This document shows positions 252 through 21,322 of a stretch of DNA of 34,442 nucleotides, piece by piece. Each line of letters opens with the position of its first letter. Within the stretch, counting starts at the first letter, position 1. A program made the translations under genes and the position numbers. The DNA comes from Tannerellaceae bacterium (lineage in GTDB: Bacteria; Bacteroidota; Bacteroidia; Bacteroidales; Tannerellaceae). The DNA lies in assembly GCA_031280435.1 (NCBI GenBank), contig JAITGS010000022.1, positions 1 through 34,442 on the forward strand, read 5' to 3'. The notes below the pieces were generated by a model. That model did no database searches. It saw only the letters and a program-made list of their open reading frames with translations, and was not told the DNA's origin.

Positions 252-374
252 AATAGTCATCGTGACTATTGCCCTCCGGGATTTTGGGAGCCAATAGTAT
301 TCGCAACTATTGCCCCTCCAAATTCCGAAAGGCAATAGTGTTCGTTACTATTGCCTTTCGGAAATTACGGCTGG
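252..374. repeat. 41-bp-period array 1, about 2.6 units
   Basis: The motif AATAGT recurs at 252, 293 and 334, exactly 41 bp apart. Each unit begins with an inverted repeat, AATAGT-n7-ACTATT, followed by GCC and a less conserved remainder. The third unit extends into a perfect 17-bp-arm hairpin (323-339 with 347-363, 7-nt loop). No T-run follows, so it is not a standard terminator. It lies in the non-coding left end of the window and shares its period, but not its sequence, with the arrays near 5493, 12942 and 20911. Confidence 0.75.
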
Positions 375-421
375 GGCTGTTCAAAAGCAAGTCAGGCTCG
401 AACAGTAGACTGTTGGGGACT

Positions 422-529
422 TCTAATAATTAGATTTTTCAAGGCTTGCGACGGAGGCAAAAGCGGAGTGTACTTTAGTACATGAGCATTTTGCCGACAG
501 AGCGAAACGCAGAAAAAGCAATTATTAGA
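422..529. repeat. 108-bp inverted-repeat element (MITE-like or long hairpin)
   Basis: The ends are perfect 10-bp inverted repeats (TCTAATAATT / AATTATTAGA). Further in, TTTTTC/GAAAAA, GGCAAAA/TTTTGCC and a central GTAC-TTTA-GTAC (473-484) also pair, so the whole element can fold into one imperfect hairpin. It contains no coding signal and lies just downstream of the minus-strand gene ending at 587. It could be a small non-autonomous mobile repeat or a long read-through hairpin; the sequence alone does not decide. Confidence 0.55.
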
Positions 530-586
530 CGTTCCCTGTTTTTAATGGCTCCTCCCGTTTGCCGGTGCGGTATGAGAGTCTGAGGC

Positions 587-2170
587 TCAGCTCTTGCTGT
601 CCTCCGCTTTCTCGTCCTGCATCAGCAGCGCTTTTCCTTTTTCGGTGGTGAAGTATCGCTGCAGCGGGCTCGAGGGCTTGGTGGGGATTCGCATGGCCAG
701 CAGGCCCGATTCGAGCAGCGGGCGGATGATGTTCTGGCGGAAGCGTGTGCGGTTGGATTGCTGGACGAGGCGCATCATATCGGTTATCTGCATGGGCTTG
801 ATGCAGGCTGCGAGTATGTCTTCGGCCTTGTCGACGTAGGAAATATCGACAGCCGGGCAGGCTTTGGATATTTTGGAGACGTACACCGGCCATTCGGCTT
901 CGGCTTCGGCTTTGACCGGTTCTACAATAGCCGGGGCTGCTGCTGTTGCTGCGGGTTCGCTGAGGCCTCGGCCTCCGTAGGTCATGGAGAAGGAGAAGCA
1001 CTCGTCGTTGCGAACTTTTATCTCGTAGTGTTTGTCGTAGTACGGAGCATACTTCAGGATGTTGGCACGTCCGGAGCCCGGTTCGCCCGTCCATCCCATT
1101 GCTCGGAATACCTGTGCGATGAGGGGGTTCTTGTCGTTCGGTTCGGGCAGCTCGTGCAGGTCGGCGCTTCCGGGCTGCACCCTGACGCCGTTCTCGGTGA
1201 TGATGCGGTCGGAGAATATCAGCAGGCGTGAGGGGTATCGGTAGGTATATTCTTTATGGATTAAAAAGTTGGAGAGAATCTCATCGAATATCTTTTCCCG
1301 CACGTCTACGCTGCCGTTGCTTATAAAGCGTTCGGGCATATTGCGGCAGATGAACTTTTTCAGCCGCGGCCATGCCTCCATCAGGTTTGAGAAGATAATA
1401 TCGCGATCGTCGTACCTGCTTTCGAGGTATTCGGATGCGGGCTTGGAGAATTCTTTGAAGGTGACGTTCCTGTATACGGCTTCGATGCGATGGATGACCG
1501 GGCTGTAATTCTGTATGGCATCTTCCTTGCCGAAGAGCAGTATGGAGGCCAGCGTAAAGCCGTCTTTGCCGCCAACTAAGTCGCGCCTGCGGAAGCCCTC
1601 CTTGTGCAGAATCTCCTCGTTGCTTAGCGATAGCCAGGGATGAGAGGGATTGGCTTCTGCAATGGCTTTGCGCATTATCAGGAAGGCAGCTTCGTCGAGC
1701 TCCGAAAATTTGAGGAAGGGCGACACCACATTCTCCGACGATTCGTTTTGCTTCCTCAGGTAAAGATTCTCCACCAGATGGTAGTTGTACGTGATGTCTA
1801 CGGTTTCGCTGCCCATTCTGTCGTAGGCTTTCCCTTTGAACCTGTGTACCTCGGCGCTGGGGGGAACGTCTACGTACAGCAGCGTGCTGTTTCCTATCGT
1901 AAGCGCTACGGGCTTCAAGTCGACGGCGGGCGACATCTCTTTTTCCATGGCGTAATCGAAGCGGGCCAGCATGTTGGCGAGGAAGATCTGTGCTACGCCT
2001 ACAATCTTGCCGAAATCGTGAACGCCTATGATCAGCTTCCCTCCGTCTTTGTTGAGGAAGGCGCAAACGGATTGAAAAACAGAGTCCGTCAATTCGGTGC
2101 TGCACTTGCTGAATTCAACGAACCTTGTTTCTCCTTGTTTTAGTATCTGCTTTATTTCCTTCTCATCCAT
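587..2170 (-). CDS. AlbA_2/Schlafen-domain putative transcriptional regulator
   Basis: The 527-residue protein begins with an AlbA_2 (Schlafen AlbA_2, formerly AAA_4) nucleic-acid-binding domain. The signature runs from ETRFVEFS to GGKLIIGVHDFGKIVGV at roughly residues 14-57. The middle and C-terminal half contain a HATPase_c_4-like segment (NPLIAQVFRAMGWTGEPGSG), and the C-terminal ~80 residues look like a winged-helix segment. This architecture is known from putative regulators annotated as RecG-like or ATP-binding proteins; no target is known. I chose the ATG at 2170 because MDEKEIKQIL begins the domain. The upstream in-frame extension to 2236 would use TTG and lies beyond a possible promoter element at 2248-2255. 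It is monocistronic as far as visible. Family confidence is high, role is uncertain. Confidence 0.8.
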   Translation of the reverse strand: MDEKEIKQILKQGETRFVEFSKCSTELTDSVFQSVCAFLNKDGGKLIIGVHDFGKIVGVAQIFLANMLARFDYAMEKEMSPAVDLKPVALTIGNSTLLYVDVPPSAEVHRFKGKAYDRMGSETVDITYNYHLVENLYLRKQNESSENVVSPFLKFSELDEAAFLIMRKAIAEANPSHPWLSLSNEEILHKEGFRRRDLVGGKDGFTLASILLFGKEDAIQNYSPVIHRIEAVYRNVTFKEFSKPASEYLESRYDDRDIIFSNLMEAWPRLKKFICRNMPERFISNGSVDVREKIFDEILSNFLIHKEYTYRYPSRLLIFSDRIITENGVRVQPGSADLHELPEPNDKNPLIAQVFRAMGWTGEPGSGRANILKYAPYYDKHYEIKVRNDECFSFSMTYGGRGLSEPAATAAAPAIVEPVKAEAEAEWPVYVSKISKACPAVDISYVDKAEDILAACIKPMQITDMMRLVQQSNRTRFRQNIIRPLLESGLLAMRIPTKPSSPLQRYFTTEKGKALLMQDEKAEDSKS

Positions 2171-2247
2171 GTCAATGAGTATGCTTTGTTTTTTCGTTGT
2201 ATGATTTCCGAACGGGTTAATACTTATGTGTAACAAATTTTGCGCCT

Positions 2248-2255
2248 TAAAGATA
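2248..2255 (-). promoter_or_regulatory. Possible -7 element of the AlbA_2 gene
   Basis: On the minus strand the sequence reads TATCTTTA, one mismatch from the Bacteroidota -7 consensus TAnnTTTG, 77 bp upstream of the ATG at 2170. No convincing -33 box was found at the right distance. Confidence 0.35.
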
Positions 2256-2298
2256 GTAATAGAAATCGGATGAGCCGCAATCGTTCGGGCTTCTAAGG

Positions 2299-3852
2299 TT
2301 ATCTTGAGAAAGCTCTGCGCCAGGGTTTGTCTTGTTTTCTCGATTTCTTTTCGGCTCTGTTCTTGTCGAACCTGTCGTAAAAGGGAGTTGTTGTCTCTGC
2401 TTTGCGTGCATCTCGGCCGTAGGGTTTTACGCTTGGCTTCTTGTCTTTTTTCTTCTTCTTCGAGGTCTCTTTATAGGGCTTGGAGTTTTTCCATTCTTTT
2501 TTCTTGCGTGGAGGTTCTTCTTCGCTTACGGTGTGTATGTGCCCTGCTTCTTTGTAGTAGTTTATCATACGGTTAAATTCGAGCGACACCATTCGCTTGA
2601 TGATGTCTTCCTTGTCGAGCCAGGCCAGTTTGCGGAAGATGGCCGGCATCAGCGGAGCTATCTCGGCTTCGTCCACTTTCACTTTCTCTATCTTGTCGAC
2701 CAAGTTTACGATTTGCTTTTCGCATATTGCTTTGCCTTCGGGTATATCGGCTTTCTCGAACTTCTTGTTGAGCGTTGTTTCTATGCTGCGTATTTTGCTT
2801 TTCTCGCGGATATGGCAGAGCGATATGGCTATGCCTGTTTTGCCGGCGCGTCCGGTTCTGCCGCTGCGGTGCGTGTATGATTCCACTTCGTCGGGCAGGC
2901 CGTAGTTGATGATGTGGGTGAGGTCGTCGACGTCGAGCCCTCGTGCGGCCACGTCTGTTGCCACGAGCAGCTGTATGTTCCGGATCCTGAACTTCTGCAT
3001 CACGGCGTCGCGCTGTGCCTGGCTCAGATCGCCGTGCAGCGAGTCGGCATTGTATCCGTCGTGCATCAGCTGGTCGGCTATCTCCTGCGTTTCCCGTCGC
3101 GTGCGGCAGAACACTATGCCGTAGATGTTGGGATAGTAGTCGGCTATGCGTTTCAGTGCAAGGTACCTGTCTTGCGCTCTCACCATATAATATATGTGGC
3201 GGATGTTGTTGTTTCCTTCGTTCCGCCTCCCTATCACTATCTCTTTAGGGTGATTCATATACTTCCGGGCTATGGATGCTATGCCTTGCGGCATGGTTGC
3301 CGAGAACAGCAGCATGTTTCGTCCGGCAGGCACTGCGGCCAGTATGTCTTCTATGCTTTCGGAGAAGCCCATGTTCAGCATTTCGTCGGCTTCGTCGAGT
3401 ATCACGTTCCGAACCAGGCGCAGGTCTACGGTTTTGCGGTTCATGAGGTCGAGCAGCCGTCCGGGCGTGGCCACTACTATATGCACGCCGCGCTTGAGGG
3501 TTTTGATTTGGCTTTCTATGCTCGAGCCTCCGTAAACCGGCAGCACTATCAGCGCTTCCATGTACTTTGAGTAGTCGTTCAGGTCGTCGGAAATCTGGAG
3601 GCAGAGCTCGCGTGTAGGGCACAGGATAAGAGCTTGTGGCTGATTAGTTGCAATGTCTATGTTTTGCAGTATAGGCAGGCCGAAAGCGGCAGTCTTGCCG
3701 GTACCCGTCTGGGCCAGCGCTATAACGTCGTTATCATCGCCGAGCAGAAAAGGTATGACTTCTTCCTGCACGGGCATCGGGGTTTCATACCCCATTTCGC
3801 GGATTGCCTTCAAGATTGGCAAGGCAATTCCTAATTCTTCGAATGTTTTCAA
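2299..3852 (-). CDS. DEAD-box ATP-dependent RNA helicase
   Basis: The 517-residue protein has all superfamily 2 DEAD-box landmarks: Q motif (PMPVQ) near residue 26, motif I AQTGTGKT at 47-54, motif II DEAD at 153-156, motif III SAT at 184-186, and motif VI HRSGRTGR at 328-335. It should unwind or remodel RNA in the cytoplasm, for example in ribosome assembly or cold adaptation, as DeaD/RhlE-type helicases do. The C-terminal ~90 residues are Lys/Arg-rich and low in complexity, a likely non-specific RNA-binding tail; I see no DbpA-type RNA-binding domain. I place the start at a TTG (3852) giving MKTFEELG, because the longer TTG start at 3882 falls inside the promoter element. No ATG is available near the domain start. 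Confidence 0.92.
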   Translation of the reverse strand: MKTFEELGIALPILKAIREMGYETPMPVQEEVIPFLLGDDNDVIALAQTGTGKTAAFGLPILQNIDIATNQPQALILCPTRELCLQISDDLNDYSKYMEALIVLPVYGGSSIESQIKTLKRGVHIVVATPGRLLDLMNRKTVDLRLVRNVILDEADEMLNMGFSESIEDILAAVPAGRNMLLFSATMPQGIASIARKYMNHPKEIVIGRRNEGNNNIRHIYYMVRAQDRYLALKRIADYYPNIYGIVFCRTRRETQEIADQLMHDGYNADSLHGDLSQAQRDAVMQKFRIRNIQLLVATDVAARGLDVDDLTHIINYGLPDEVESYTHRSGRTGRAGKTGIAISLCHIREKSKIRSIETTLNKKFEKADIPEGKAICEKQIVNLVDKIEKVKVDEAEIAPLMPAIFRKLAWLDKEDIIKRMVSLEFNRMINYYKEAGHIHTVSEEEPPRKKKEWKNSKPYKETSKKKKKDKKPSVKPYGRDARKAETTTPFYDRFDKNRAEKKSRKQDKPWRRAFSR

Positions 3853-3879
3853 TTGTTGATTATAAATTAAGAGAAGGCG

Positions 3880-3887
3880 CAAAAGTA
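3880..3887 (-). promoter_or_regulatory. -7 promoter element of the helicase gene
   Basis: The minus strand reads TACTTTTG, an exact TAnnTTTG match, 27 bp upstream of the TTG start at 3852. A transcript from here would begin downstream of the alternative TTG at 3882, which supports the shorter protein. The -33 region is weak. Confidence 0.6.
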
Positions 3888-3941
3888 CGAAGAAAGTAAG
3901 AGATTATGAAACCCTTGCTTAAAAGGGGGATTGGGGAGGCC

Positions 3942-5399
3942 TCAGCTGTTGCCTGCCGCCAGCACCGCGTTGGCAATTTTGCGCGCTCTTCTCACCAGGG
4001 CGGAATCGTCGCTGCATAGATCGAGTATGAGTACAGCCGCCGCTGCATGCTGTATGGAGAGCACTTTGTCGGGACGCTGATACTGATAAAATAAAGACAT
4101 GTTGACTAAAACAAGTGCGAAATGAGGATTCCAGGCCTTCGGATACTCTGCGGCTAAGGCCCCGTATGTCTCCGTACATTCCTTGTAGAAAGCTTCGGCC
4201 TTGGCATAATCCGGCGCGGGCTTGTCGGCATAGAAGTTCCCAAGACTATTGAGACTTGAGGCTAAGTCCGGATTGTATGCTTGCGGATTATTCCGGGCCA
4301 GCTCTCTGCGTATCGCTAATGCTTCGGTATGATATTTTTCGGCCTCTTCATAGTCTTTCATATTATAATACACGGTTCCCAGATTATTTAGAGAGGTTGC
4401 AAGATCGGGATTGTGTGTCTTGGCATCCTTTGCAGTCATTTCTCTGTATAATTGCAGGGCGTTCTTGTGGTATGCTTCCGCCTGCGTATATTCTGCCTTG
4501 TCCCGGTGCCATTCTCCAAGATTGTTGAGAGTAATGGCAAGAACCGGATTATATTTGTCAGAGTCTTTTTTTGCCAGCTCTCTATATATCTCCAGCGCTT
4601 CATTATAGCGTTCTTCCGCCTGCCCGTACTCTCCCTTATCCCCGCACAAAGCGCCAAGATTGTTGAGAGTCACGGCTAAGCCGGGCTTATAGGTTTGCGG
4701 ATCCTCATCGTTTAAGCGTCTGGCTATTTCCAAGGCTTCCGCATAAGCTTTTTCGGCTTCCGAATATTCATTCGATTGCCAAAATATCATCCCCAGATTA
4801 TTCAGTACGCTGGCTCTTTGCTCGGCAGATAGCTCCATCTCCAGACAATGCTTTAAATATCCTTGTGCTTCCCTGAAGCGGTTAAGACTATAATAGAACT
4901 TAGCCGCAGCTAATGTGTTATCGAATGAAGGCCATGTGTCGACAGCCATATTGTAATTCCCGCATGCTTCATCGAATTGAGAGTTGGCTATATAGAGCCT
5001 GGCCCGGAAGATGTAGAACTCGGCATCCTTTTCCTTTTTATATGCATCGAGCCGTGCTATGGCTTTGGCGTATTCGCCTTTCTCCACAAATGGCTTTGTG
5101 GCTTGCAAGTAATCGGGCAAGTCTTTTTCGGCAAGTTGTTGCTGCAGTTCCTCAATGGTTTTATCGCGAAGGGCTATTTTATGGAGCAGTGTATCGTCCA
5201 CAATGTTCGCGGCTATTTCAGGAGTAACTATCGCAGGCTCGGCCTTAAATATCTGGGTCAACAAAACGCCAACCACTGCAATTATTAATGTGGCGAGCAT
5301 ATAAACAATGTTATTGCTTATCAGGGCTGCCGCGGCTGCTATCACTCCAAGGGCAACACAAGAAATTATGATTGTAGTCTTCATAAACGCAGTTATCAT
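3942..5399 (-). CDS. Membrane-anchored tetratricopeptide (TPR) repeat protein
   Basis: The 485-residue protein has two hydrophobic segments near the N terminus (about residues 8-27 and 31-49), then a short charged, coiled-coil-like stretch (EELQQQLAEKD), then about eight TPR units with the kinesin-light-chain-like rhythm LNNLGxxxxxxxxYxxAExxYxEALEIxR. The repeats are very regular between about residues 190 and 400. Such proteins act as protein-binding scaffolds; the helical domain is most likely cytoplasmic after a hairpin anchor, but topology is inferred. A second ATG at 5384 (MKTTIIISC) is also a plausible start. It is transcribed alone, away from leuA. A 41-bp repeat array lies just upstream. 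The partner is unknown. Confidence 0.85.
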   Translation of the reverse strand: MITAFMKTTIIISCVALGVIAAAAALISNNIVYMLATLIIAVVGVLLTQIFKAEPAIVTPEIAANIVDDTLLHKIALRDKTIEELQQQLAEKDLPDYLQATKPFVEKGEYAKAIARLDAYKKEKDAEFYIFRARLYIANSQFDEACGNYNMAVDTWPSFDNTLAAAKFYYSLNRFREAQGYLKHCLEMELSAEQRASVLNNLGMIFWQSNEYSEAEKAYAEALEIARRLNDEDPQTYKPGLAVTLNNLGALCGDKGEYGQAEERYNEALEIYRELAKKDSDKYNPVLAITLNNLGEWHRDKAEYTQAEAYHKNALQLYREMTAKDAKTHNPDLATSLNNLGTVYYNMKDYEEAEKYHTEALAIRRELARNNPQAYNPDLASSLNSLGNFYADKPAPDYAKAEAFYKECTETYGALAAEYPKAWNPHFALVLVNMSLFYQYQRPDKVLSIQHAAAAVLILDLCSDDSALVRRARKIANAVLAAGNS

Positions 5400-5492
5400 T
5401 TAAAATTTCAGCCGGCAAGGTAGGCGATAAAAATCGCAATGTAAAAGGAGCCTGCGCAAGCTAATGCAAATAATGGAGGTTAGCCGAACATT

Positions 5493-5621
5493 TTCGCAAG
5501 CTTTAGCGATTGTGGAGAAAGCTCGCGAACACGTTCGCAAGCTTTAGCGATTGTGGAGAAAGCTTGCGAACGCGTTCGCAGACTTTAGCGATTGTGGAGA
5601 AAGCTTGCGAACGCGTTCGCA
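5493..5621. repeat. 41-bp-period array 2, three units plus a partial
   Basis: Units start at 5493, 5534 and 5575, exactly 41 bp apart, with a partial fourth at 5616. Each unit contains an inverted repeat: TTCGCAAGCTTT, a 13-bp spacer, then AAAGCTTGCGAA, perfect in unit 2 (5534-5545 with 5559-5570). Unit junctions form a second dyad, a perfect 16-bp palindrome TGCGAACGCGTTCGCA at 5565-5580 and 5606-5621. The array sits between the divergent TPR gene and the leucine operon. The remaining sequence to 5821 shows no gene or RNA that I recognise. Confidence 0.85.
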
Positions 5622-5821
5622 CAAGACTGAAATGGCTTCAGTTCTTCGACACGTTTCAACGGCGCGGTATCCAAATGTTTCGGTGTCTCGACGGAGCTGC
5701 GGCGGCACATCACAAGGCTTCGGATGGCGCCAACGGGATGGCGGCATGCAAAACAACAGTATTGACCGGGCTGCGGATGCTGCCCGCATCGACCGTCATT
5801 CGTGCGATGAGGCCGGAAAAA

Positions 5822-5852
5822 TTTGGAGATGTCGGAAAAGCGTGTAATTTTG
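5822..5852 (+). promoter_or_regulatory. Promoter of the leucine operon
   Basis: TTTG at 5822-5825 and TAATTTTG at 5845-5852 are separated by exactly 19 bp, a full match to the Bacteroidota primary sigma factor consensus TTTG-N19-21-TAnnTTTG. Transcription would begin near 5859, giving a leader of about 195 nt before leuA that contains the leader peptide and the attenuator hairpins. Confidence 0.8.
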
Positions 5853-5873
5853 CGACGAAATAAAACGAGGCGT

Positions 5874-5951
5874 ATGCAGAACATAACAATATCTCATATT
5901 ATTGCTCCCCTAAGTATTATTCTCATATTGCGAAAGCAAATCGGGAAGTGA
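5874..5951 (+). CDS. Ile/Leu-rich leader peptide of the leucine operon
   Basis: An ATG at 5874 opens 25 codons ending in TGA at 5949-5951. The peptide contains 8 Ile and 3 Leu, with the run SHIIAPLSIILIL in its middle (codons 7-19). It lies about 15 nt downstream of the inferred transcription start and ahead of a terminator hairpin. It ends with basic residues (RKQIGK). This is the form of a translated attenuation leader: ribosome stalling on Ile or Leu codons reports shortage of these amino acids. It has no expected function as a protein. The reading is inference from sequence, but all the parts are present and correctly spaced. Confidence 0.78.
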   Translation: MQNITISHIIAPLSIILILRKQIGK

Positions 5952-6003
5952 GACTGTTATGCCTTATGTTTTTGATAGTTTAAAAGGCGCCTCTCTCGCT
6001 TCC
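5944..6003 (+). promoter_or_regulatory. Antiterminator hairpin of the leu attenuator
   Basis: GGAAGTGAGA at 5944-5953 can pair over 10 bp, with one G-T wobble, with TCTCGCTTCC at 5994-6003. The 3' arm overlaps the 5' arm of the terminator (5990-6001), so the two structures exclude each other. The 5' arm covers the leader peptide stop codon: a ribosome that reaches the stop would mask it, while one stalled at codons 15-19 (5916-5930) would leave it free. Confidence 0.7.
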
Positions 6004-6026
6004 AAAGTGAGGGAGGTTTTTTCTTT
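5990..6026 (+). terminator. Attenuator terminator upstream of leuA
   Basis: The 12-bp stem CCTCTCTCGCTT / AAGTGAGGGAGG (two G-T wobbles, 3-nt loop) is followed at once by six T, one C and three T. It is a canonical intrinsic terminator but lies 29 bp before the leuA start, inside the operon leader, so it is expected to act conditionally. Confidence 0.78.
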
Positions 6027-6054
6027 ATAAGGGTATATACTTAATTTAGATATT

Positions 6055-7575
6055 ATGTCAAACGAGAGATTATTTATTTTCGACACTACCCTGCGCGACG
6101 GCGAGCAGGTTCCCGGCTGCCAGCTGAGCCTCAGCAAGAAGGTGAAGCTGGCGAAAAAGCTGGCGGCAATGGGAGTAGATGTCATAGAGGCCGGCTTCCC
6201 GGCTTCGGGCCAGGAGGATTTCGATAGCGTTGTTGCCATATCGAAGGAAGTTAGCAAAACGAGCATCTGCGCCCTGACCCGCGCGGTTGAGAAAGACATC
6301 GACCTGGCCGCCGAGGCGCTCCGCTATGCCACCTACAAGCGCATCCACACCGGCATAGGAACATCTGAGTTTCACATTCAGGGCAAGTTCCGCTCTACTC
6401 GCGACGACATACTCCAGCGGGCCATAGCCTGCGTGAAGTATGCCAAGCGCTACGTGGAGGATGTGGAGTTTTACGCCGAGGATGCCGGCCGCACCGACAA
6501 CGACTATCTGGCCCGCGTGGTGGAAGCCGTAATCAAGGCCGGCGCAACCGTTATCAACATCCCCGATACGACGGGCTACTGCCTTCCCGAAGAATACGGC
6601 GCGAAGATTCGCTACCTTGTAGAGAATGTGACAGGTATAGACAAGGTGACAATATCGACGCATTGCCACAATGATCTGGGGCTGGCCACGGCCAATACCA
6701 TACAGGGCGTACTGAACGGAGCCCGGCAGGTGGAAGTGACCGTCAACGGCATAGGCGAACGGGCCGGCAACACCTCGCTCGAGGAGATCGTCATGATCAT
6801 CAACAGCCATAAGCTGCCCTACCTGCTGGACGTAAAGCCTGTTTACATCAGCGACCTGAGCAATACCGTTTCGAGCATGATGAACATGCCGGTGCAGCCG
6901 AACAAGGCAATAGTGGGGCGCAATGCTTTTGCCCACTCGTCGGGCATACACCAGGACGGCGTCATAAAAGACAGGAGCACCTACGAGATTATCAATCCCG
7001 AAGATGTGGGCATAGACAGCAACATGATAGTGCTTTCGGCACGCAGCGGACGGGCAGCCCTGAAGCAGCACCTCAAGAGCTTCAGCGTGGATATAGACAA
7101 CGGCAAGCTGGACGACGTGTACAAGCGCTTTGTGGAATTAGCCGAAAGGAACAAATACTTCACCAATGCCGATGTGCTGAAGTTAGTCAGGAAGGATTAC
7201 AGGAAGATGCAGCGATATACGCTGGAGTACATGCAGGTGACTTCGGGCAAAGAGCCCATAAAGCCGGTGGCAAGCGTAGGCATCCTTGATAACGACAGCC
7301 TCATCGAAGCCTCGGCTACCGGCAGCGGCCCCGTAGATGCGGTTATCAGGGCCATCAACCAGGCCATAGTATTGAAGAGGGATAACGACGAGGGCAGGAA
7401 AAAGCTTGCCACGTTCAGCATACATGCCGTTGAGTCGGGCAGCGAAGTGGTAGGCAAGGCTCACATAAGCCTCAACTACGACAAGAGAATCTTCCACGGC
7501 TATGCCGCTCATACGGATATAATAGTTGCCTCGGCCGAGGCTTATATAGATGCAATAAACAAAATATCGGAATGA
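6055..7575 (+). CDS. leuA: 2-isopropylmalate synthase
   Basis: The enzyme condenses acetyl-CoA with 2-oxoisovalerate, the first committed step of leucine synthesis, in the cytoplasm. The 506-residue protein carries the HMGL-like signature DTTLRDGEQ at residues 10-18, the metal-binding HCHND motif (His203, His205) in a TIM barrel, the [11 protein letters not shown] motif, and a C-terminal LeuA regulatory domain (from about residue 390) that in this family binds leucine for feedback control. Length is typical. It is the first structural gene of the cluster; its stop overlaps the leuC start by 4 bp (ATGA), pointing to translational coupling. Upstream lies an attenuator-type leader. Confidence 0.96.
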
Positions 7576-11580: not shown

Positions 11581-11594
11581 TACCCGCCGATACA

Positions 11595-12790: not shown

Positions 12791-12941
12791 ACGGCTCATG
12801 ATCGGTCGAAGGAAGGTCGGGCGCAGCCGGGTTCAGGCATAGGGGCCCTGATGATGCCGCAATAACCAATAAACTCCATGCTTCTGCATTATTCTAAACA
12901 ATTAGACGTATATGCACAAAGAATTGTCCCCTTTTTACCCT

Positions 12942-13150
12942 GGCACAACGTTGTTCCGCTCCCAGATTTTTTTTCCGGACGCCGGAACAACGTTGTTCCG
13001 CTACCAGTTTTTTTTTCCGGAGCCGGCACAACGTTGGTCCGCTCCCAGATTTTTCTCCGGACGCCGGCACAACGTTGTTCCGCTCCCAAGATTTTTCTCC
13101 GGACGCCGGCACAACGTTGTTCCGGCTCCCGAATCTCAACTTTTCCGCCG
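12942..13150. repeat. 41-42-bp-period array 3, four units plus a partial
   Basis: Units start at 12942, 12984, 13025, 13066 and 13108 (spacings 42, 41, 41, 42). Each begins GGCACAACGTTGTTCCGCT, continues with CCAG and a T-rich tract, and ends CCGGACGCC; the fifth is degraded. The palindromic core ACAACGTTGT is present in all but the third unit, and unit 2 has a perfect 16-bp palindrome at 12984-12999. The variable T-tract accounts for the 1-bp length differences. It lies in the 697-bp gap between leuB and the next gene; open frames across it are repeats, not genes. Confidence 0.88.
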
Positions 13151-13277
13151 GGAATGAGAGCGCCGGGAAAAACATCCGGGGCTTTCCGAGCTATGTGAAG
13201 TTATCCGCAAGAGAAAAATTTAAAAGTTTCCCGCATCCATTGCGTAGCCGTTTTATTCAACTTTAAAGCTTATATCG

Positions 13278-13285
13278 TATATTTG
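13278..13285 (+). promoter_or_regulatory. -7 promoter element for the 13363-18556 genes
   Basis: TATATTTG matches TAnnTTTG exactly, 77 bp upstream of the ATG at 13363. The -33 region is not convincing. It would drive the isomerase-like gene, purL and the barrel gene. Confidence 0.55.
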
Positions 13286-13362
13286 GCCCGCAGATAAATA
13301 TGAAGCTATTTTTAGCACATTGCCGGTAGCTATTAAAACAATTCTATAATTCTAATTTTCGT

Positions 13363-14244
13363 ATGAAACACATGACAAGGCGTAATGCCATTAAAGCAGC
13401 TTTGGCCGGTGGAGCCATGGCGGCAGTATCATCATCGTCCGTATATGGGATGAAAGCAGCGGGGGTTGCGTCGGCGGCTCCTTTGAAGGGTAATATTCGC
13501 CACTCGGTTAGCAAGTGGTGCTTCGGAAGCTATGAACTCGATGAGTTCTGTAAGATATGCAAGCGTATAGGCATTGAGTCGGTTGAGCTTCTTGATCCTA
13601 AGGACTGGCCGACGGTGCAGGCTAACGGCCTGACGGTTGCTATGGCGCAGGGAGCCGGGCTCGGCATCGATCGCGCCTTTAATGACCCCAAGCTGCACGA
13701 CGAGCTGGTGAAGAGCTATGAGGAGGTGATTCCTCAGGTTGCCGAAGCCGGGCTGACGAACCTGATATGCTTCTCCGGAAAGCGGAACGGCGTTACCGAC
13801 CTTCAGGGATGGGAAAACTGCGAGGCCGGCCTGAAGCGTATTATCCCCATTGCCGAGAAGCATAAGGTGGTGCTTACGATGGAGCTGCTGAACAGCGTTG
13901 GTCATAAGGACTACCTGTGCGATCACACGGTTTGGGGCGTTGAGCTGTGCCGCCGGCTGGGCTCGCCTAATTTCCGCTTGCTCTACGACATTTATCACAT
14001 GCAGATAATGGAGGGCGACATAATAAACAACATCAGGAAGTATCACGAGTTCTTCTCGCATATACATACCGGAGGCAATCCGGGCCGCGCCGAGATTGAC
14101 GAAACCCAGGAGCTCTACTATCCTGCCATCATGCAGGCGATAGTTGCTACGGGATACAAGGGCTTCGTTGGGCAGGAGTTTGTGCCTAAGCAGGCCGACA
14201 AGATTGCATCGCTCGAAAAATGTATTAAGATCTGCGACGTATAG
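13363..14244 (+). CDS. Exported hydroxypyruvate-isomerase-like TIM-barrel protein
   Basis: The 293-residue protein starts with a twin-arginine-like signal (TRRNAIKAALAGGAMAAVS), suggesting export already folded. The mature part is an AP-endonuclease-2-type (xylose-isomerase-like) TIM barrel closest in appearance to hydroxypyruvate isomerase. Likely metal ligands are Glu174 (LTMELLNS), Asp209 (LLYDIYHMQ), His235 (HIHTGG) and Glu272 (VGQEFVP). The substrate is probably a sugar or keto acid, but the family is broad and the physiological reaction is unknown. Only 2 bp separate it from purL, so the two are almost certainly cotranscribed, an unusual pairing with no obvious functional reason. Confidence 0.85.
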   Translation: MKHMTRRNAIKAALAGGAMAAVSSSSVYGMKAAGVASAAPLKGNIRHSVSKWCFGSYELDEFCKICKRIGIESVELLDPKDWPTVQANGLTVAMAQGAGLGIDRAFNDPKLHDELVKSYEEVIPQVAEAGLTNLICFSGKRNGVTDLQGWENCEAGLKRIIPIAEKHKVVLTMELLNSVGHKDYLCDHTVWGVELCRRLGSPNFRLLYDIYHMQIMEGDIINNIRKYHEFFSHIHTGGNPGRAEIDETQELYYPAIMQAIVATGYKGFVGQEFVPKQADKIASLEKCIKICDV

Positions 14245-14246
14245 AA

Positions 14247-17200: not shown

Positions 17201-17915
17201 GAACGGAGAGCGCGAAATGGCCTACGCACTCCACGCTGCCGGCTTCCGCGTTAAAGACGTTCACCTCTCCGACCTCTCCTCCGGACGGGAAACGCTCCGC
17301 GACGTCGGCCTCATAGTTTTCTGCGGAGGCTTCTCCAACTCCGACGTGCTCGGCTCTGCCAAAGGCTGGGCTGCCGGAATCCTCTACAACGAAAAGGCGC
17401 ACGCGGCCATCAAAACCTTCTATGCCCGCCCGGACACCCTTAGCCTGGGCATTTGCAACGGATGCCAGCTCATGGCCGAGCTCGGCCTCCTGTACCCTGA
17501 CTATGAATTGCCGCACAAGATGCGGATTAACCGGTCGACCAAGTTTGAGTCGGCATTTATTTCAGTAGAAATACCTCAAAACCGTTCCGTGATGCTCTCT
17601 TCGCTGAGCGGAAGCAAGCTCGGCGTGTGGATTGCCCATCGCGAAGGCCGATTTGACTTCCCCTACGACGAGAGCGCCTATCACATTGTTGCCAGATATA
17701 ACCATGCCGAATATCCCGCCAATCCAAACGGATCACCGGGAGCAGTAGCAGGGATTTGCTCGGCCGACGGACGCCACTTAGCCATGATGCCTCATCCCGA
17801 AAGAGCCATCTTCCCATGGCAATGCGGACATTATCCGGAGGACAAACGATGTGACAGCTTTACCCCATGGATAGAAATATTTATTAATGCATATAATTGG
17901 ATTATCAACAAATGA
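14247..17915 (+). CDS. purL: Phosphoribosylformylglycinamidine synthase, single-chain
   Basis: The enzyme converts formylglycinamide ribonucleotide, ATP and glutamine to formylglycinamidine ribonucleotide in purine synthesis. At 1222 residues this is the long form with all functions on one chain: an N-terminal PurS-like region, two AIR-synthase-type ATP-binding halves (for example AETHNFPTTVEPFNGASTGTGG and the later TGKDSLSMT), and a C-terminal class I glutaminase. The glutaminase triad is visible: Cys1070 in LGICNGCQLM, and His1183 and Glu1185 in MPHPERAI. It is slightly shorter than the E. coli enzyme. The stop overlaps the downstream barrel gene by 4 bp (ATGA). Confidence 0.96.
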   Translation: MILFFKSSEATLIAVEAAKALSADDVSKLAWLFGSSSPAEEAVEGHFIGPRREMITPWSTNAVDITRTMGIDGIVRIEEYLPASPDADYDPMLQRLYDGLNRELFAVDIRPAEIIFIEDIEDYNRKEGLALSKSEADYLAGLSRRLGRLLTDSEVYGFAQVNSEHCRHKIFNGTFVIDGKEQPLSLFSLIRRTSSENPNRLVSAYKDNVAFNEGPRIVQFAPEQGDVPSFFVVREIEAVLSLKAETHNFPTTVEPFNGASTGTGGEIRDRLGGGKASLPLAGTAVYMTSYPRTGKETVNEWERALAPRPWLYQTPEQILIKASNGASDFGNKYGQPLICGSLLTFEHKENDRIYGYDKVVMLAGGVGYANRRDALKGKPQAGDRILVLGGDNYRIGMGGGAVSSVNTGRYTSGVELNAVQRANPEMQKRVANVIRSIAESDDNPIVSIHDHGAGGHLNCLSELVESVGGRIEISRLPIGDPTLSSKEIIGNESQERMGILIRPMDIDRVMRIAERERAPIYVVGETTGSKKLMFRQADGRKPIDLSLDDLFGRPPKVIINDVTVTASFSPFEFSDARVLEYLTKVLRLEAVGCKDWLTNKVDRSVTGKVAHQQCQGELQLPLADLGVVALDYSGKAGMATSIGHAPQAGLIDPVAGTLLSIAEALTNIVFAPIAYGLAGVSLSANWMWPCRNEGEDARLYAAVSAASDFACSLGINIPTGKDSLSMTQTYADGKVLSPGTVIISAGAEVTDVRKVVSPVLKKDLDTHIYYVDFSFDGIKLGGSALAQTMNRLGSEAPTVTDPAGFARTFGAVQEAISAGLILAGHDISAGGMVTALLEMCFANVQGGLHVDLSQWSDLSILFAENPAILVQVKDTEAFEQLMRKAETTFIRIAHPIAGRFLKIRGSVKFDVSIDAARDIWYSPSRKLDEKQSGLACASKRFENYGKQALEFCFPETFGTAICSFSAAESRRSSGVIAAILRDKGTNGEREMAYALHAAGFRVKDVHLSDLSSGRETLRDVGLIVFCGGFSNSDVLGSAKGWAAGILYNEKAHAAIKTFYARPDTLSLGICNGCQLMAELGLLYPDYELPHKMRINRSTKFESAFISVEIPQNRSVMLSSLSGSKLGVWIAHREGRFDFPYDESAYHIVARYNHAEYPANPNGSPGAVAGICSADGRHLAMMPHPERAIFPWQCGHYPEDKRCDSFTPWIEIFINAYNWIINK

Positions 17916-18556
17916 AAAAAACGATTTTATTAATCATGTTGACCGCGCTGCCATTACTATCGGCCAGCGCCCAGGGCGAGTTCGCCCTCACGCCGCGCGC
18001 CGGGCTTAATCTGGCGACTATTACTTCAACCAAAGGCAGCTCTATTAAGCCGGGACTGAACTTCGGCGTTGTTGCAGATTACATGTTCACGTCGCAGTGG
18101 GGAGTGGAAAGCGGGCTGATGTATTCCATGCAGGGAGCTACATTCAGCGGTCTTTCCCCAAGCATTGACTATCTGAATATCCCCTTGCTTGCAAAGTTCT
18201 ATCTGACGGATTACTACACCGAAAGTATGGGATTCTACGTCGTGGCAGGCCCTCAGTTCGGGCTGGTCGGCATTATGGACAAGGTGGGCTATACCACCGG
18301 CTATGAGGGAAAGCTCATGCCCGACGCCATAACCAAAGGCTTCGACTATGCAGCCGTCGTAGGCGTAGGATACGAGCTCGAATCGGGATTGGCGCTCTCG
18401 GCCCATATCAACTGGGGGCTGGCCAATATCGCTAAGGATTCCTTCAAAGCTTACACTACGACAGGACAGTCCACAACCGAGCAAGTCATCAAACGCGACA
18501 AATCCTACTCCAACTTCGTCTTCCAACTGAACTTCGGATACAGGTTTACGCTATAA
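17912..18556 (+). CDS. Outer-membrane beta-barrel (porin-family) protein
   Basis: The 214-residue protein has a clear signal peptide (MKKTILLIMLTALPLLSASA followed by QG). The rest is alternating, aromatic- and glycine-rich sequence typical of the small eight-stranded OMP_b-brl_2/PorT-like barrels common in Bacteroidota, ending in FQLNFGYRFTL with a hydrophobic terminal strand as seen in outer-membrane proteins. The start at 17912 gives the signal peptide directly; a longer frame from 17897 would add five residues inside purL. It overlaps the purL stop by 4 bp. The role is unknown. Confidence 0.82.
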   Translation: MKKTILLIMLTALPLLSASAQGEFALTPRAGLNLATITSTKGSSIKPGLNFGVVADYMFTSQWGVESGLMYSMQGATFSGLSPSIDYLNIPLLAKFYLTDYYTESMGFYVVAGPQFGLVGIMDKVGYTTGYEGKLMPDAITKGFDYAAVVGVGYELESGLALSAHINWGLANIAKDSFKAYTTTGQSTTEQVIKRDKSYSNFVFQLNFGYRFTL

Positions 18557-18579
18557 GCCGAACCACATCCGATCTCCTA

Positions 18580-18617
18580 AAAAAGGGCCGCCGGACATAC
18601 AGTCCGACGGCCCTTTT
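18580..18617. terminator. Bidirectional terminator between convergent genes
   Basis: AAAA-GGGCCGCCGGAC and GTCCGACGGCCC-TTTT form a stem of about 16 bp with one mismatch and a short loop. The A and T runs on either side let it serve both the plus-strand barrel gene ending at 18556 and the minus-strand gene ending at 18645. Confidence 0.8.
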
Positions 18618-18644
18618 CGCATCCGGCAATTCCCGGACAAAGCC

Positions 18645-19520
18645 TCAGAGAGCCGCTTTCAGCTCCTCCAGGAGCCTCCGGACCCTCTCGCGCTCGTTGC
18701 CCTTGCCTATAATCTCAATGGGAACATAGCCGCAGTAGCCTCCCTTGCGGATAATATCCATAACCCGACCAACGTCGGTTTTCGTCTCCAGGCCATTTTC
18801 AAAAACCGTCTCCTTCACCTGCCAGGTTACGGCATAGCCTATCGTCCGCTCTATCTCCCGGTAAGGCTCGGAGCGATAGCTGCCTATGTCGAGCATCAGG
18901 CCGACGGCCTCGGAGCGAATCCGCGAGAAGAGTTGCTCCACATCCTCGGCCGTCTTGAGGAAATCATTATGATTTTGCAGCGCAATCACTATCCCGTAGC
19001 TTTCCGCAACCGCAGCGCACTCGTTGATAGCCTCGGCCACCTGCCTTGCCGTCGCCTCCCGCGTCGATCCCTGCGGAACGCCCTCGCCGGCAAAGATTCG
19101 CAGCGTAGACGCTCCAAGCTTGGCCGCCACAACTATCCAGTCCTTCACAAGCTGCTTCTCCTTTTCCAGAGCAGCCCTGTCGGCAAGCGTAAAGTCATTC
19201 CGCACGCCCGTTCCGCATATCTGAATCCCCCGGCGGAAAGCCCTGTATTTCGTGCGATAAATCTCCTCGTCGGACGGCGCCGCCGGATAGGTGCTGAAGT
19301 AATACCCCGTCATATCCAGCGCAGCATATCCCAGCGAAGCCGCATAGTCAATAACACTCTCCAGGGTTTCGCTCCCATCGGTAAGCGGACTGTTGAACGA
19401 GTATAAATTCAGGGCAATCTTCACCGAACTACTGTCGGCCCTGTTCCCAAACCTGTTTTGAGCCGTAGCCGCAGTGCAAGCAATCGCAGCCGCCGCTATA
19501 AAGAGCATCAAGCTTCTCAT
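18645..19520 (-). CDS. Exported sugar phosphate isomerase/epimerase-like protein
   Basis: The 291-residue protein has an N-terminal signal peptide (about residues 1-20, cleavage likely after ATA before QNRF). It then folds as an AP-endonuclease-2-type TIM barrel: ALNLYSFN at the start of the barrel, TLRIFAGEGVPQG, IVIALQNHNDFL, VGLMLDIGSYR, VPIEIIGKGN. Asp in LDIGS and Glu in IEIIG are candidate metal ligands; the residue expected as Glu in the third motif appears as Gln (LQNHND). It is probably periplasmic and acts on a sugar-like substrate that cannot be named. It follows the DUF3127 gene by 11 bp, so they probably share a transcript. Confidence 0.8.
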   Translation of the reverse strand: MRSLMLFIAAAAIACTAATAQNRFGNRADSSSVKIALNLYSFNSPLTDGSETLESVIDYAASLGYAALDMTGYYFSTYPAAPSDEEIYRTKYRAFRRGIQICGTGVRNDFTLADRAALEKEKQLVKDWIVVAAKLGASTLRIFAGEGVPQGSTREATARQVAEAINECAAVAESYGIVIALQNHNDFLKTAEDVEQLFSRIRSEAVGLMLDIGSYRSEPYREIERTIGYAVTWQVKETVFENGLETKTDVGRVMDIIRKGGYCGYVPIEIIGKGNERERVRRLLEELKAAL

Positions 19521-19531
19521 GGCGCGGCGGT

Positions 19532-19915
19532 TTAAAACGGCAGATCGTCCGAAGGCGCAGGCGGCGGCGATTCCGGAGCATCGTCAAACTGCGGATAAAC
19601 AGGCCCCGACGGCTGAACCGTTTCGGCCGTATTCTCCCGCCAGGCGTCAGCCCTTTCCACCTTCCAGGCGTTGATGTTGGTGTACCACCTGCCGTTAAAT
19701 TCGCGGCTCTCAATGTCGAACGATACCCTCACATTCTCTCCCTGCTGAACGTTTGCCTGGGCAATCTTGTCCGCCCCAAAAATCTGGAAGCAGACTTTCT
19801 TGGGAAACTGGTCCTCGGTTTCTATCACATACTCTTGCTTCTTCCACTCGTTGCCGGCCCGGCTCACACCTTCCTGTGCAGGGATAACGGCCACTATTTT
19901 TCCTGATATTTCCAT
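19532..19915 (-). CDS. DUF3127 protein with SSB-like acidic tail
   Basis: The 127-residue protein matches the DUF3127 family, small OB-fold-like proteins widespread in Bacteroidota: MEISGKIVAVIPAQEG, the KKQEYVIETED strand, FDIESREFNGRWYTNINAWKVE. After residue ~95 a proline- and acid-rich linker leads to the C-terminal DDLPF, which closely resembles the DDDIPF tip of bacterial SSB that recruits replication and repair proteins. Together these suggest a DNA-binding or genome-maintenance role, but the biochemical function is not established. An exact TAnnTTTG element lies 38 bp upstream. Confidence 0.85.
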   Translation of the reverse strand: MEISGKIVAVIPAQEGVSRAGNEWKKQEYVIETEDQFPKKVCFQIFGADKIAQANVQQGENVRVSFDIESREFNGRWYTNINAWKVERADAWRENTAETVQPSGPVYPQFDDAPESPPPAPSDDLPF

Positions 19916-19952
19916 AAAAAAATAAAATTAATTGTTTGATTTTCTATGCCGG

Positions 19953-19960
19953 CAAAGATA
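19953..19960 (-). promoter_or_regulatory. -7 promoter element of the DUF3127 gene
   Basis: The minus strand reads TATCTTTG, an exact TAnnTTTG match, 38 bp upstream of the ATG at 19915. It lies immediately beyond the stop codon of the preceding gene. No clear -33 box. Confidence 0.55.
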
Positions 19961-19961
19961 C

Positions 19962-20840
19962 TTATTTGGCATCAGTCTGCGAGGCCTTATCCGAAGTCGT
20001 CGCCGGAGCGGCAGCCTCAGCCTTCGAATCGTTCTTCGTCCGGGCATCGCCATCCTCCTTCTTCTCCTTTTTTTTGCGGTGATATCCCCGGTGGGCCAGG
20101 TTGGACTGCGCCTGGTGAACGGCAGCGCTTATAATATCCCTCACATCCATAAGATTTTGGCGGACTGCAGCATCCTGCGGCCCTAATTCATTCGCTGCCC
20201 AGGCAACGTTTATGCTGTCTATAAGCGCATCAAAGGCCGCGTCGACTTCGAAGCGCACCTTCGACAACCTGCCTATTTCAGACACATGCGTCCTGCTCAC
20301 CGAGCGTTCCTGATAAAGCGACATGAACGTTTCGTGTGCAGTCTTTATCTTGTTTATATAATGAGCAAGATCGATGAGCAGGGCCGACGACAGAAGCTGT
20401 ATAGCCTGCTGATTGACCGCTATCCCACAATCCTGGAGGAAATTACTCATATTGCCGCTCAAATTGTAGTAAGCCATTTCGGGCAGGGCCCTGTACGTGT
20501 GATGCAGGAACTTCAGCCTGTCCGCAGCCAGTTTCACATCCGCCCCCGGCAGATAATCGGCCATTTCAACGCATCTCCACAGGAAGATGAAATGAGCCAC
20601 CCGCTCTTCATTCAACCTGGCAATATTGCCCGTCAGAAACGAAGCCTGGCTAAGCTTAAACAGAGAATCCTCAAGGCTAAAAACAATTTTCAGGCTATCG
20701 AGCATCCCCTTCACCGTCGGCAAATTATCCAGCAAGCCTTTCAGCCCCTCAATGACAGGCCCCTCATAAAAAGAGAAATGTTCTCCTATATAAAGCCTTT
20801 TCAAAAGAGTTTTGAACGATATGGGAAACAACTTCTTCAT
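19962..20840 (-). CDS. DUF6261-like protein of unknown function
   Basis: The 292-residue protein has no signal peptide or membrane segment. It is mostly helical by composition, with the N-terminal motif TLLKRLYIGEHFSFY and a later RFEVDAAFDALIDSINVAW segment. These resemble the DUF6261 family of Bacteroidales, though I hold that assignment loosely. The last ~45 residues are low-complexity: a Lys/Glu-rich stretch (KKKEKKEDGD) then an Ala/Thr/Ser-rich tail. I chose the ATG at 20840 (MKKLFPISF) because the longer frame to 20951 crosses the promoter and enters the repeat array. Function unknown. Confidence 0.65.
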   Translation of the reverse strand: MKKLFPISFKTLLKRLYIGEHFSFYEGPVIEGLKGLLDNLPTVKGMLDSLKIVFSLEDSLFKLSQASFLTGNIARLNEERVAHFIFLWRCVEMADYLPGADVKLAADRLKFLHHTYRALPEMAYYNLSGNMSNFLQDCGIAVNQQAIQLLSSALLIDLAHYINKIKTAHETFMSLYQERSVSRTHVSEIGRLSKVRFEVDAAFDALIDSINVAWAANELGPQDAAVRQNLMDVRDIISAAVHQAQSNLAHRGYHRKKKEKKEDGDARTKNDSKAEAAAPATTSDKASQTDAK

Positions 20841-20874
20841 AAATTCATTTTTTGTATCTGATGTTAATAGGCCA

Positions 20875-20882
20875 CAAATATA
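20875..20882 (-). promoter_or_regulatory. -7 promoter element of the DUF6261-like gene
   Basis: The minus strand reads TATATTTG, an exact TAnnTTTG match, 35 bp upstream of the ATG at 20840. The -33 position would fall at about 20902-20905, directly against the first unit of the repeat array. Confidence 0.6.
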
Positions 20883-20904
20883 AAAAAATAATTTCAGCCC
20901 ATTT

Positions 20905-21322
20905 ATATATCGCAAAACTTTGTGAGAAATATTTTCAAGCTTTTGCGACATCGCAAAACCTTGCGAGAAGCCTTTTCAGACTTTTGCTATATCGCAAAAC
21001 CTTGCGAGAAACATTTTCAGACCTTTGCGACATCGCAAAACCTTGCGGGAAATATTTTCAGGCTTTTGCGATATAGCAAAACTTTGCGGGAAATATTTTC
21101 AACCTTTTGCTATATGGCAAAACCTTGCGAGAAATATTTTCGGGCTTTTGCGATATAGCAAAACCTTGCGAGAAATATTTTCAAGTTTTTGCGACATAGC
21201 AATGCCTTGCGGGAAATGTTTTCAGGCTTTTGCGACATAGCAATGCCTTGCGGGAAATATTTTCGGGCTTTTGCGATGTCGCAATGCCTTGCGGGAAATA
21301 TTTTCGGGCTTTGCCATACTTA
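20905..21322. repeat. 41-bp-period array 4, ten units
   Basis: Equivalent positions of the unit fall at 20911, 20952, 20993, 21034, 21075, 21116, 21157, 21198, 21239 and 21280: ten units with exactly 41 bp between each and no insertion or deletion. The unit contains TCGCAAAACCTTGCGAGAAA followed by an AT-rich ATTTTC stretch and TTTTGCGA. Junctions form the dyad TTTTGCGA-n2-TCGCAAAA (perfect at 20941-20958). Substitutions are shared by neighbouring units (GCAATGCC in the last three), as expected from local duplication. It fills the gap between the GH106-like gene and the DUF6261-like promoter. Confidence 0.92.

Follow-up and report, generated by a model that had tools for sequence, protein, structure and literature searches.

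The window analysed here is a stretch of 34,442 nucleotides from a Tannerellaceae bacterium (GenBank assembly GCA_031280435.1, contig JAITGS010000022.1) and makes up the whole of contig C49 in G000, an incomplete genome of 3.06 Mb in 143 contigs (83% complete). It carries four tandem arrays with a unit of about 41 bp. These belong to a large Bacteroidales class of arrays that keeps a unit length of about 41 letters without a common sequence. An array of this class lies within 500 bp of 84 of the 110 judged genes of DUF6261 (PF19775), a protein family without known function that gains in the adjoining array a concrete candidate partner, and the link recurs in other Bacteroidales families. The DUF6261-linked arrays point to an undescribed protein-DNA system. 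In the preferred reading, to which a probability of roughly 0.45 is assigned, the arrays would be helically phased rows of DNA-binding sites for the product of the neighbouring gene, with dispersed secondary copies. The known arrangements tested do not fit the anatomy of array plus gene, and the literature searched yielded no description.

The 41-bp array class

The four arrays of the window are as follows.

252..372, unstranded: array 1, three dyad units CAATAGT...ACTATTG with spacings of 41 and 41, read from the sequence; no adjoining DUF6261 gene
5485..5621, unstranded: array 2, period 41, 3.3 copies, dyad GCGAACRCGTTCGC; no adjoining DUF6261 gene
12942..13130, unstranded: array 3, period 42, 4.5 copies, dyad around AACGTT plus a T-tract; no adjoining DUF6261 gene
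20907..21312, unstranded: array 4, period 41, 9.9 copies, dyad TTTTGCGATATCGCAAAA plus an A-tract

A sequence-only reading of the window had proposed that these arrays share a period but not a sequence, that every unit carries a dyad, and that the arrays occur only between genes. This interpretation is partly supported overall. The period stands for all four. Tandem Repeats Finder (TRF) returns arrays 2, 3, and 4 with periods of 41, 42, and 41; array 1 lies below its reporting at a score of 40, and its three dyads are legible in the sequence. The intergenic position also holds, as Pfam-supported genes cover none of the four. Mechanical open reading frames (ORFs) do overlap them, including a long form of the DUF6261 ORF (19962-20951) whose aligned start is at 20840. 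All four are rows of head-to-tail units without spacers, and the unique spacers that define clustered regularly interspaced short palindromic repeats are not found.

The shared period extends well beyond the window and beyond chance. A 645-kb sample of G000 (21% of the genome) was drawn from the window and from contigs C1-C40, each contig contributing its first 20 kb or its full length, and arrays with a TRF score of at least 80 and a period of at least 15 were kept, the period being taken as the best lag. The sample contains 126 tandem arrays. In 106 of them the best lag falls at 40-42 bp and in 18 at 21-23 or 46 bp, lengths near whole helical turns; the remaining two have best lags of 33 and 57 bp. 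The peak is sharp across different sequences, an outcome that the sequence-only reading had named as support for a common mechanism. By extrapolation, the whole genome would hold about 500 arrays of the 40-42 bp class. The gene content of the window is Bacteroidales-like, and the nearest named leuB loci include metagenome-assembled genomes (MAGs) of Parabacteroides, Tannerella, and Candidatus Symbiothrix. A control set of 80 named leuB neighbourhoods (1,350 kb), nearly all labelled Bacteroidota and not a random genome sample, contains 22 arrays with scattered TRF periods and none at 40-42 bp. Two control arrays have periods of 80 and 84, the latter in a Tannerella MAG. Arrays of the class do occur in other members of the genus and elsewhere in the order.

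The units differ in sequence, as had been proposed, but are not wholly unrelated. Runs of at least five A/T occur in 46% of 190 consensus units versus 8% of shuffles, and the pieces CGGAAAA, GCTTGCG, and AGCTTTC recur across the class; both counts are inflated by array families that were left uncollapsed. Dyads are enriched, with 33% of the 190 units above the 95% quantile of shuffled units and 19% above the 99% quantile. A dyad in every unit is therefore too strong a statement. Arrays 1, 2, and 4 fall within the top 60 of the dyad ranking and array 3 falls outside it, though one of its units shows a perfect CGGAACAACGTTGTTCCG.

Array 1 is near the contig end, its left neighbour lying beyond the contig. 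It has two relatives elsewhere in G000 (79% and 84% identity over 102 and 116 bp), neither of them DUF6261-linked. Array 2 occupies a divergent gap between a tetratricopeptide repeat (TPR) gene (3942-5399, minus strand) and leuA (6055-7575, plus strand), and is 95% identical over 137 bp to an array located 123 bp 5' of a DUF6261 gene on contig C92. Array 3 lies between leuB and a TIM-barrel gene; its relative at L152:14205 (80% over 186 bp) is not DUF6261-linked. Array 4 is 66 bp upstream of the start codon of the window DUF6261 gene.

The link to DUF6261 genes

The DUF6261 gene of the window and the candidate promoter elements are as follows.

19962..20840, minus strand: DUF6261 (PF19775) gene, 292 aa, Pfam E 4.1e-18, start codon at 20840 by paralogue alignment
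20875..20882, minus strand: -7-type box TATATTTG of the presumed DUF6261 promoter, separating array 4 from the start codon
13278..13285, plus strand: TAnnTTTG box (Bacteroidetes -7 type), between array 3 and the gene at 13363

The window protein scores 66.2 bits against a Pfam curated cut-off of 27. DUF6261 has 44 matches in G000 and from 2 to 44 across members of the genus. A total of 268 matches is held by 21 genomes, part of which were fetched, by score rank outside G000, giving 121 ORFs after the removal of 5 duplicates. Judgement was limited to the 110 ORFs whose start could be assigned and that had 300 bp or more of DNA upstream. An array of 39-43 bp units within 500 bp is located 5' in 75 and 3' in 10, one gene being counted under both, and on neither side in 26. 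DUF6261 is thus a conserved gene linked to the arrays, of the kind for which the sequence-only reading had proposed a search. In nine of the 26 array-less genes (L022, L027, L031, L064, L071, L085, L253, L279, and L309), the best local lag is 40-43 bp and exceeds the 99% quantile of shuffled DNA. In the initial survey, the genes with a 3' array belong to one subclade. A further subclade, from low-copy genomes (L071, L075, L076, and L079), is without a TRF array of the class.

Within the same sample, an array is found within 200 bp 5' of 6 of 8 DUF6261 genes versus 36 of 455 other ORFs (p 1e-5). For all judged G000 DUF6261 genes the figure is 27 of 38 (p 1e-18), a comparison that is uneven, as DUF6261 genes were scored at TRF 60 and other ORFs at 80, with some chance ORFs among the latter. 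In G009, a TRF array of the class is 5' at 25 of 28 DUF6261 loci, two of which are also in the set of 110. Across the order, DUF6261 is present in 15 of 148 sampled genomes, G000 included. Loci newly fetched from these number 26; six were dropped because they had no profile match or no start, and 20 were judged, two of them belonging to a different genus within the family of G000. Of the 20, 12 have within 500 bp a TRF array with a period of 41-43 bp or a multiple thereof (11 located 5' and 1 located 3'), four more have a best lag of 41 or 42 bp, and the remaining four show no clear repeat.

The arrays also hold a constant position relative to the presumed promoter box. TAnnTTTG is the consensus of the Bacteroidetes -7 element. 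This box occurs within 100 bp 5' of the ATG in 25 of 40 G000 DUF6261 genes, against 5.7% in shuffles, and lies 34-49 bp before the ATG in 24 of the 25. Where a boxed gene has an array upstream, the array is always upstream of the box, so that the box lies between array and ATG. The box at 13278..13285 is weak taken alone, as the window holds 20 such boxes versus 15 expected. The proposal that the arrays are coding repeats was rejected; the group apparently inside an ORF vanished once array-spanning ORFs were excluded, partly by construction. Separately, the flanks of L012, L023, and L070 contain 63-69 bp repeats near DUF6261 genes that resemble coding units of the leucine-rich-repeat type.

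The model of the window DUF6261 protein is a helical bundle with a disordered tail (mean predicted local distance difference test score 89, predicted template modelling score [pTM] 0.67). A longer form has an added beta-rich C-terminal domain (model pTM 0.50). This domain, of about 120 residues and with the motif LAxLTGxxYP, ends the longer proteins L271, L263, L280, L308, and others (in G010, G003, and G016). Only M1, R80, and R179 are invariant in 40 DUF6261 sequences. In four long proteins, a Pfam scan gave no additional family above cut-off, and no transposase, replication initiator, or ToxN-type RNase family turned up in the DUF6261 proteins that were scanned. PADLOC and NCBIfam return nothing for two proteins scanned. 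A sequence search of PDB chains gives a single weak match, to MecA (E 0.008), and a contig scan with the window protein as query found nothing.

Array families, exchange, and HU-type genes

Array families were built from 35 arrays linked to 30 DUF6261 genes together with 95 others, the latter being those more than 500 bp from a DUF6261 gene in the sample plus array 1. Families were defined by blastn at E 1e-9 over at least 55 bp; looser single linkage at E 1e-6 over-joined them. The result is 59 families. Relatives among the other arrays exist for 23 of the 35 linked arrays (20 of 30 DUF6261 genes), and 39 of the 95 other arrays belong to a family with a DUF6261-linked array. Among the multi-member families with a linked array, 15 of 18 have exactly one DUF6261 gene. 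This dispersal of families away from the gene goes beyond what the sequence-only reading described, as does the 21-23 bp class described below. The arrays are dispersed through intergenic DNA as tandem rows of about 2-11 units, the search having covered arrays and not single units. The arrays without a gene do not appear to be decayed DUF6261 loci, since no remnant was found near 78 such orphan loci. In the stretches from other genomes of the genus, 16 arrays of the class were found (TRF at least 60), none with DUF6261 within 700 bp; those stretches are DUF6261-free.

Arrays turn over quickly. In nine close pairs of DUF6261 paralogues, similarity extends over the ORF and 3-142 bp of upstream sequence without running through the array; in L038/L039 it ends at the array edge. 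It is over by about 3 bp past the stop codon in eight of the nine pairs and continues about 100 bp further in L026/L017. The sequence-only reading had suggested that sequence drifts while length is kept. The period peak supports this, but drift does not act alone, as exchange also occurs. At L024/L329, both flanks align (78% and 94%), as does the promoter region, and the arrays share only 16-bp pieces, which by alignment is array exchange at a fixed locus.

G009 and G000 (LeuA 89% identical) were compared more widely, at 21 reciprocal best DUF6261 pairs and over 450 bp. Seven pairs have no array or no upstream DNA on one side and were excluded (L021, L031, L039, L251, L252, L253, and L259). 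With arrays on both sides and protein identity of at least 62%, the array is similar in six of eight pairs (the window, L011, L018, L030, L035, and L250; not L012 or L024). At protein identity of 57% or less, it is similar in none of six beyond short pieces (L020, L023, L025, L040, L045, and L254). The array 4 locus is syntenic in G009, with the array 74.7% identical over about 390 bp, DUF6261 64%, and the neighbouring proteins 73-83%.

The gap 5' of leuA, where array 2 is located, is suggestive only as a site of exchange. At the same distance G009 has an unrelated array with an 81-bp period. Beyond this array the G009 flank cannot be aligned to the window, and on this ground the claim of a proven fixed array site at leuA was dropped. 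Arrays end about 330-440 bp from leuA in G003 (83 bp), G016 (63 bp), and G002 and G006 (22 bp each), and 22-bp arrays lie about 0.9-1.1 kb from leuA in G001 and G013. No array is present in the 1.5 kb fetched upstream of leuA in 10 of 17 relatives. At the place of array 3, G009 has no TRF array within 1.5 kb 3' of leuB.

A parallel arrangement concerns genes of the HU type, whose proteins do have a recognised DNA-binding fold. Two 21-23 bp arrays of G000 adjoin genes with HU-DNA_bdg or HU-HIG plus DUF4469. In G000 and G001, 14 of 18 DUF4469 loci have an array of 22-23 bp units (or 44-46, or 69) within about 200 bp. For HU-HIG, 30 loci were fetched from five genomes, 8 weak matches with in-frame stops were left out, and 10 of the 22 judged have a TRF repeat of 21-22 bp within about 150 bp 5'. 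Example HU loci are L057:9733-10491, L155:14799-15578, L401-L418, and L419-L448. Other 21-23 bp arrays adjoin genes of other kinds. In the G001 sample, seven of nine arrays are of 21 or 23 bp, and the one checked of its two DUF6261 genes is array-less. At L056, L135, L155, and L164, arrays of 21-23 or 43 bp lie beside related large genes that resemble outer-membrane (SusC/TonB-type) proteins. On G005:C13 (L425 and L434), HU-HIG genes adjoin leuB, where G000 has array 3.

DUF6261 and HU-type proteins also share short C-terminal tags that differ by genome (HPxxGE, GGGGIG, and P[VI]E[DE]). The counts that follow are from loci of G000, G012, G005, and G002 chosen around DUF6261 or HU genes and are not genome-wide. 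In G000, where 1,908 sample ORFs plus the DUF6261 and HU loci were searched, HPxxGE is within the last 60 residues of 35 distinct ORFs: 31 DUF6261 proteins (of 43), 2 HU-DUF4469 proteins (of 4), and 2 probable chance ORFs. In G012, a GGGIG end (plus up to three residues) occurs in 8 of 352 ORFs, namely five DUF6261 proteins (of 8), two HU-HIG proteins, and one HU-DNA_bdg-DUF4469 protein (by Pfam) whose gene has a 69 (3 x 23) bp array 90 bp 3'. PIEE or PVED ends are found in G005 on one DUF6261 and one HU-HIG protein (2 of 270 ORFs), and a P[VI]E[DE]-type end in G002 on three DUF6261 proteins and no HU protein (3 of 375 ORFs). Tags common to two protein scaffolds suggest a common partner.

Proposed function and comparison with known systems

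The preferred reading draws on the period, the gene-array link, the position of the promoter box, the family structure, the exchange at a syntenic locus, and the partial sharing of tags. The enriched dyads, the missing period peak in the control DNA, the similar arrays of the closer G000-G009 pairs, and the HU parallel also favour it. Each array would be a row of cis-acting sites for the protein encoded beside the founding copy of its family, with DUF6261 proteins acting at 41-43 bp arrays and HU-type proteins (HU-HIG, HU-DNA_bdg, partly DUF4469 fusions) at many arrays of the 21-23 bp class. With a unit length close to four or two helical turns, the sites would lie on one face of the DNA, where protein copies could bind cooperatively side by side or form bridges. 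The binders would be dimeric or multimeric, and the sequence of the sites would be private while the length is conserved. An array upstream of the DUF6261 promoter may serve autoregulation or nucleation, related arrays elsewhere may be secondary sites of the same protein, and the C-terminal tag that many such proteins of one genome carry may recruit a common partner.

Several observations weigh against this reading. Three objections are the strongest: DUF6261 has no known DNA-binding fold, near-identical paralogues adjoin unrelated arrays, and array density ignores the number of DUF6261 genes. Foldseek searches of both DUF6261 models against PDB give no match at E <=0.001, and no DNA-binding fold is recognised. 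Paralogues 81-82% identical (L029/L040 and L271/L263) adjoin unrelated arrays, so protein sequence does not simply dictate the array, and a strict rule from one to the other was rejected; these pairs might be explained by a small number of residues that set specificity, or by faster exchange of arrays than of genes. In a comparison with ten other genus members, array density per 100 kb is 16.1 in G000 (first 20 contigs plus the window), 13.6 in G009, and 0-3.4 in the others. G010 has 40 DUF6261 genes and one array in 75 kb (1.3 per 100 kb), G005 has 30 genes and no array in 45 kb, and G004 has three genes and two arrays in 74 kb (2.7 per 100 kb), counts that contradict density as a function of gene number. 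Moreover, no DUF6261-linked relative was found for 56 of the 95 arrays lying away from the gene, 7 orphan loci are in convergent gaps, and the co-divergence of protein and array between G000 and G009 may come only from shared age. The HU parallel is incomplete: at the 14 DUF4469 loci the array is 3' in 12 and 5' in 2, a plan different from the mostly 5' arrays of DUF6261; TRF places no such array directly 5' of 12 of the 22 HU-HIG genes judged; and the extra C-terminal domain of some DUF6261 proteins is not DUF4469-like (profile comparison probability 0.1). HPxxGE is missing from 12 of 43 G000 DUF6261 proteins, the window protein included, and from 2 of 4 HU-DUF4469 proteins. At the array 4 locus of G009, a symmetric dyad (TTTTCGAyrTCGAAAA, both arms changed) is found by eye at two of eight junctions, the other six being asymmetric, and compensatory dyad change was dropped as a candidate for this reason. 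Confidence in phased binding is lowered because the tag is not universal and this dyad comparison is mixed.

A broader version of the preferred reading is more doubtful. It would make the arrays a chromosome-wide addressing system, in which dozens of DNA-binding proteins per genome, on DUF6261 and HU scaffolds, each have a private satellite of helical-turn-locked length (about 41 or 22 bp) and free sequence, the satellites being spread and exchanged and a genome-specific tag on many of these proteins leading to one partner. Such a system would be a bacterial counterpart of fast-evolving satellites and their binding proteins.

Four rival explanations were weighed. The arrays may be ordinary transcriptional operators, the orphans marking the regulons of dozens of paralogous local regulators with no chromosome-scale or partner role, and their place upstream of the DUF6261 promoter box fits this. 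Among gaps of at least 60 bp (array-spanning ORFs excluded), an array is present in 23 of the 48 divergent ones, 31 of the 113 tandem ones, and 6 of the 36 convergent ones, an orientation bias that is confounded by gap length. Orphan arrays are, however, about equally far from gene starts (median 224 bp) and gene ends (187 bp; p 0.44), ten DUF6261 genes have the array 3', and the tags across two scaffolds suggest a common partner, so that operators alone seem an unlikely account. Mobile or copied parasites, with DUF6261 as the copying or amplifying protein and the gene-side array as the source copy, seem quite unlikely. These would resemble repetitive extragenic palindromic (REP) sequences and bacterial interspersed mosaic elements with their REP-associated tyrosine transposase (RAYT), which have short palindromic units, dispersed families, and one partner gene per family. 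Similar traits are found here, with mostly one gene per array family, along with a copy number of DUF6261 from 2 to 44 within the genus and a paralogue similarity confined almost to the ORF. Against such parasites, no HUH/Y1 transposase is recognised, the tandem units are fixed at 41-43 or 21-23 bp, and there are two unrelated partner folds, of which the HU proteins are non-transposases in a similar arrangement. DUF6261 has no evident transposase family or conserved catalytic set, only three residues being invariant, and the window protein found no relative among plasmids and phages in a search of one query and limited reach.

Neutral satellites, with replication slippage favouring the unit length and DUF6261 genes tolerating arrays or inserting beside them, would account for the fast turnover and exchange and for a density unrelated to DUF6261 number. 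This explanation is very unlikely, as the period peak is missing from the 80 control loci, the position relative to gene and promoter box is constant (5' far more often than 3'), and the link holds across families of the order. An RNA mechanism appears the least probable of the four. In type III toxin-antitoxin systems (ToxIN), a tandem array with a family-specific repeat sequence lies 5' of a protein gene. Here, the array would likewise be transcribed, and hairpin small RNAs would act on the protein of the adjoining gene. The array does lie directly 5' of a protein gene, its repeat sequence is family-specific, and folding of stretches from the four window arrays gives strong RNA hairpins (z -3.6 to -6.9). 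These hairpins follow from the DNA dyads, however, and a promoter box of the gene's own separates the array from the ATG. One subclade has the array 3', many arrays have no gene, an Rfam scan of the window gives no match, and the all-helical DUF6261 is unlike the ToxN fold.

Other known systems fit in part. Plasmid iterons are direct repeats of whole helical turns beside the gene of the Rep protein that binds them. The whole-turn repeats described here also adjoin the gene of the expected binder, but no Rep domain is recognised, up to 44 DUF6261 matches occur per genome, and arrays are also dispersed. In ParB-parS and ParR-parC, a DNA-binding protein has repeated private sites near its gene, as the putative binder has here; in contrast, no ParA/ParM or ParB family is found among the window proteins scanned, and each genome has many array families. 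Proteins with HU-HIG, HU-DNA_bdg, and DUF4469 (PF18291, PF14848, and PF14734) occur in the same genomes, often adjoin an array, and share tags with DUF6261. They differ in the HU fold, the 21-23 bp units, and the mostly 3' array of the DUF4469 group, and their Pfam names mention no array partner. The BrickBuilt miniature inverted-repeat transposable elements (MITEs) of Porphyromonas gingivalis are likewise intergenic tandem repeats in a Bacteroidales genome, but consist of 23-nt units within MITEs with leader and tail sequences, and a 41-bp class goes unmentioned in the excerpt of the source (PMC4596501). The Beggiatoaceae have abundant intergenic TAACTGA direct repeats for which, according to an excerpt of the source, a regulatory role is proposed; these are one fixed heptamer, as opposed to the fixed length and free sequence of the present arrays (PMC4679880). 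In the open-licence literature on DUF6261, DUF4469, HU-HIG, BrickBuilt, and Bacteroidales tandem repeats, such arrays are undescribed among the matches listed, which does not prove their absence from print.

Should arrays and proteins be cognate pairs, a single genome would supply dozens of natural variants in specificity on one fold, and with them a means of asking why length rather than sequence is conserved. The HU parallel, together with the shared tags, suggests a common partner and a kind of chromosome organisation or conflict in bacteria for which no description was found.

Two further genes lie towards the ends of the contig. Positions 587-2236 of the window encode a Schlafen AlbA_2/Fic-like C-terminal protein, and positions 32704-34239 encode a Wzi capsule-assembly-like protein.

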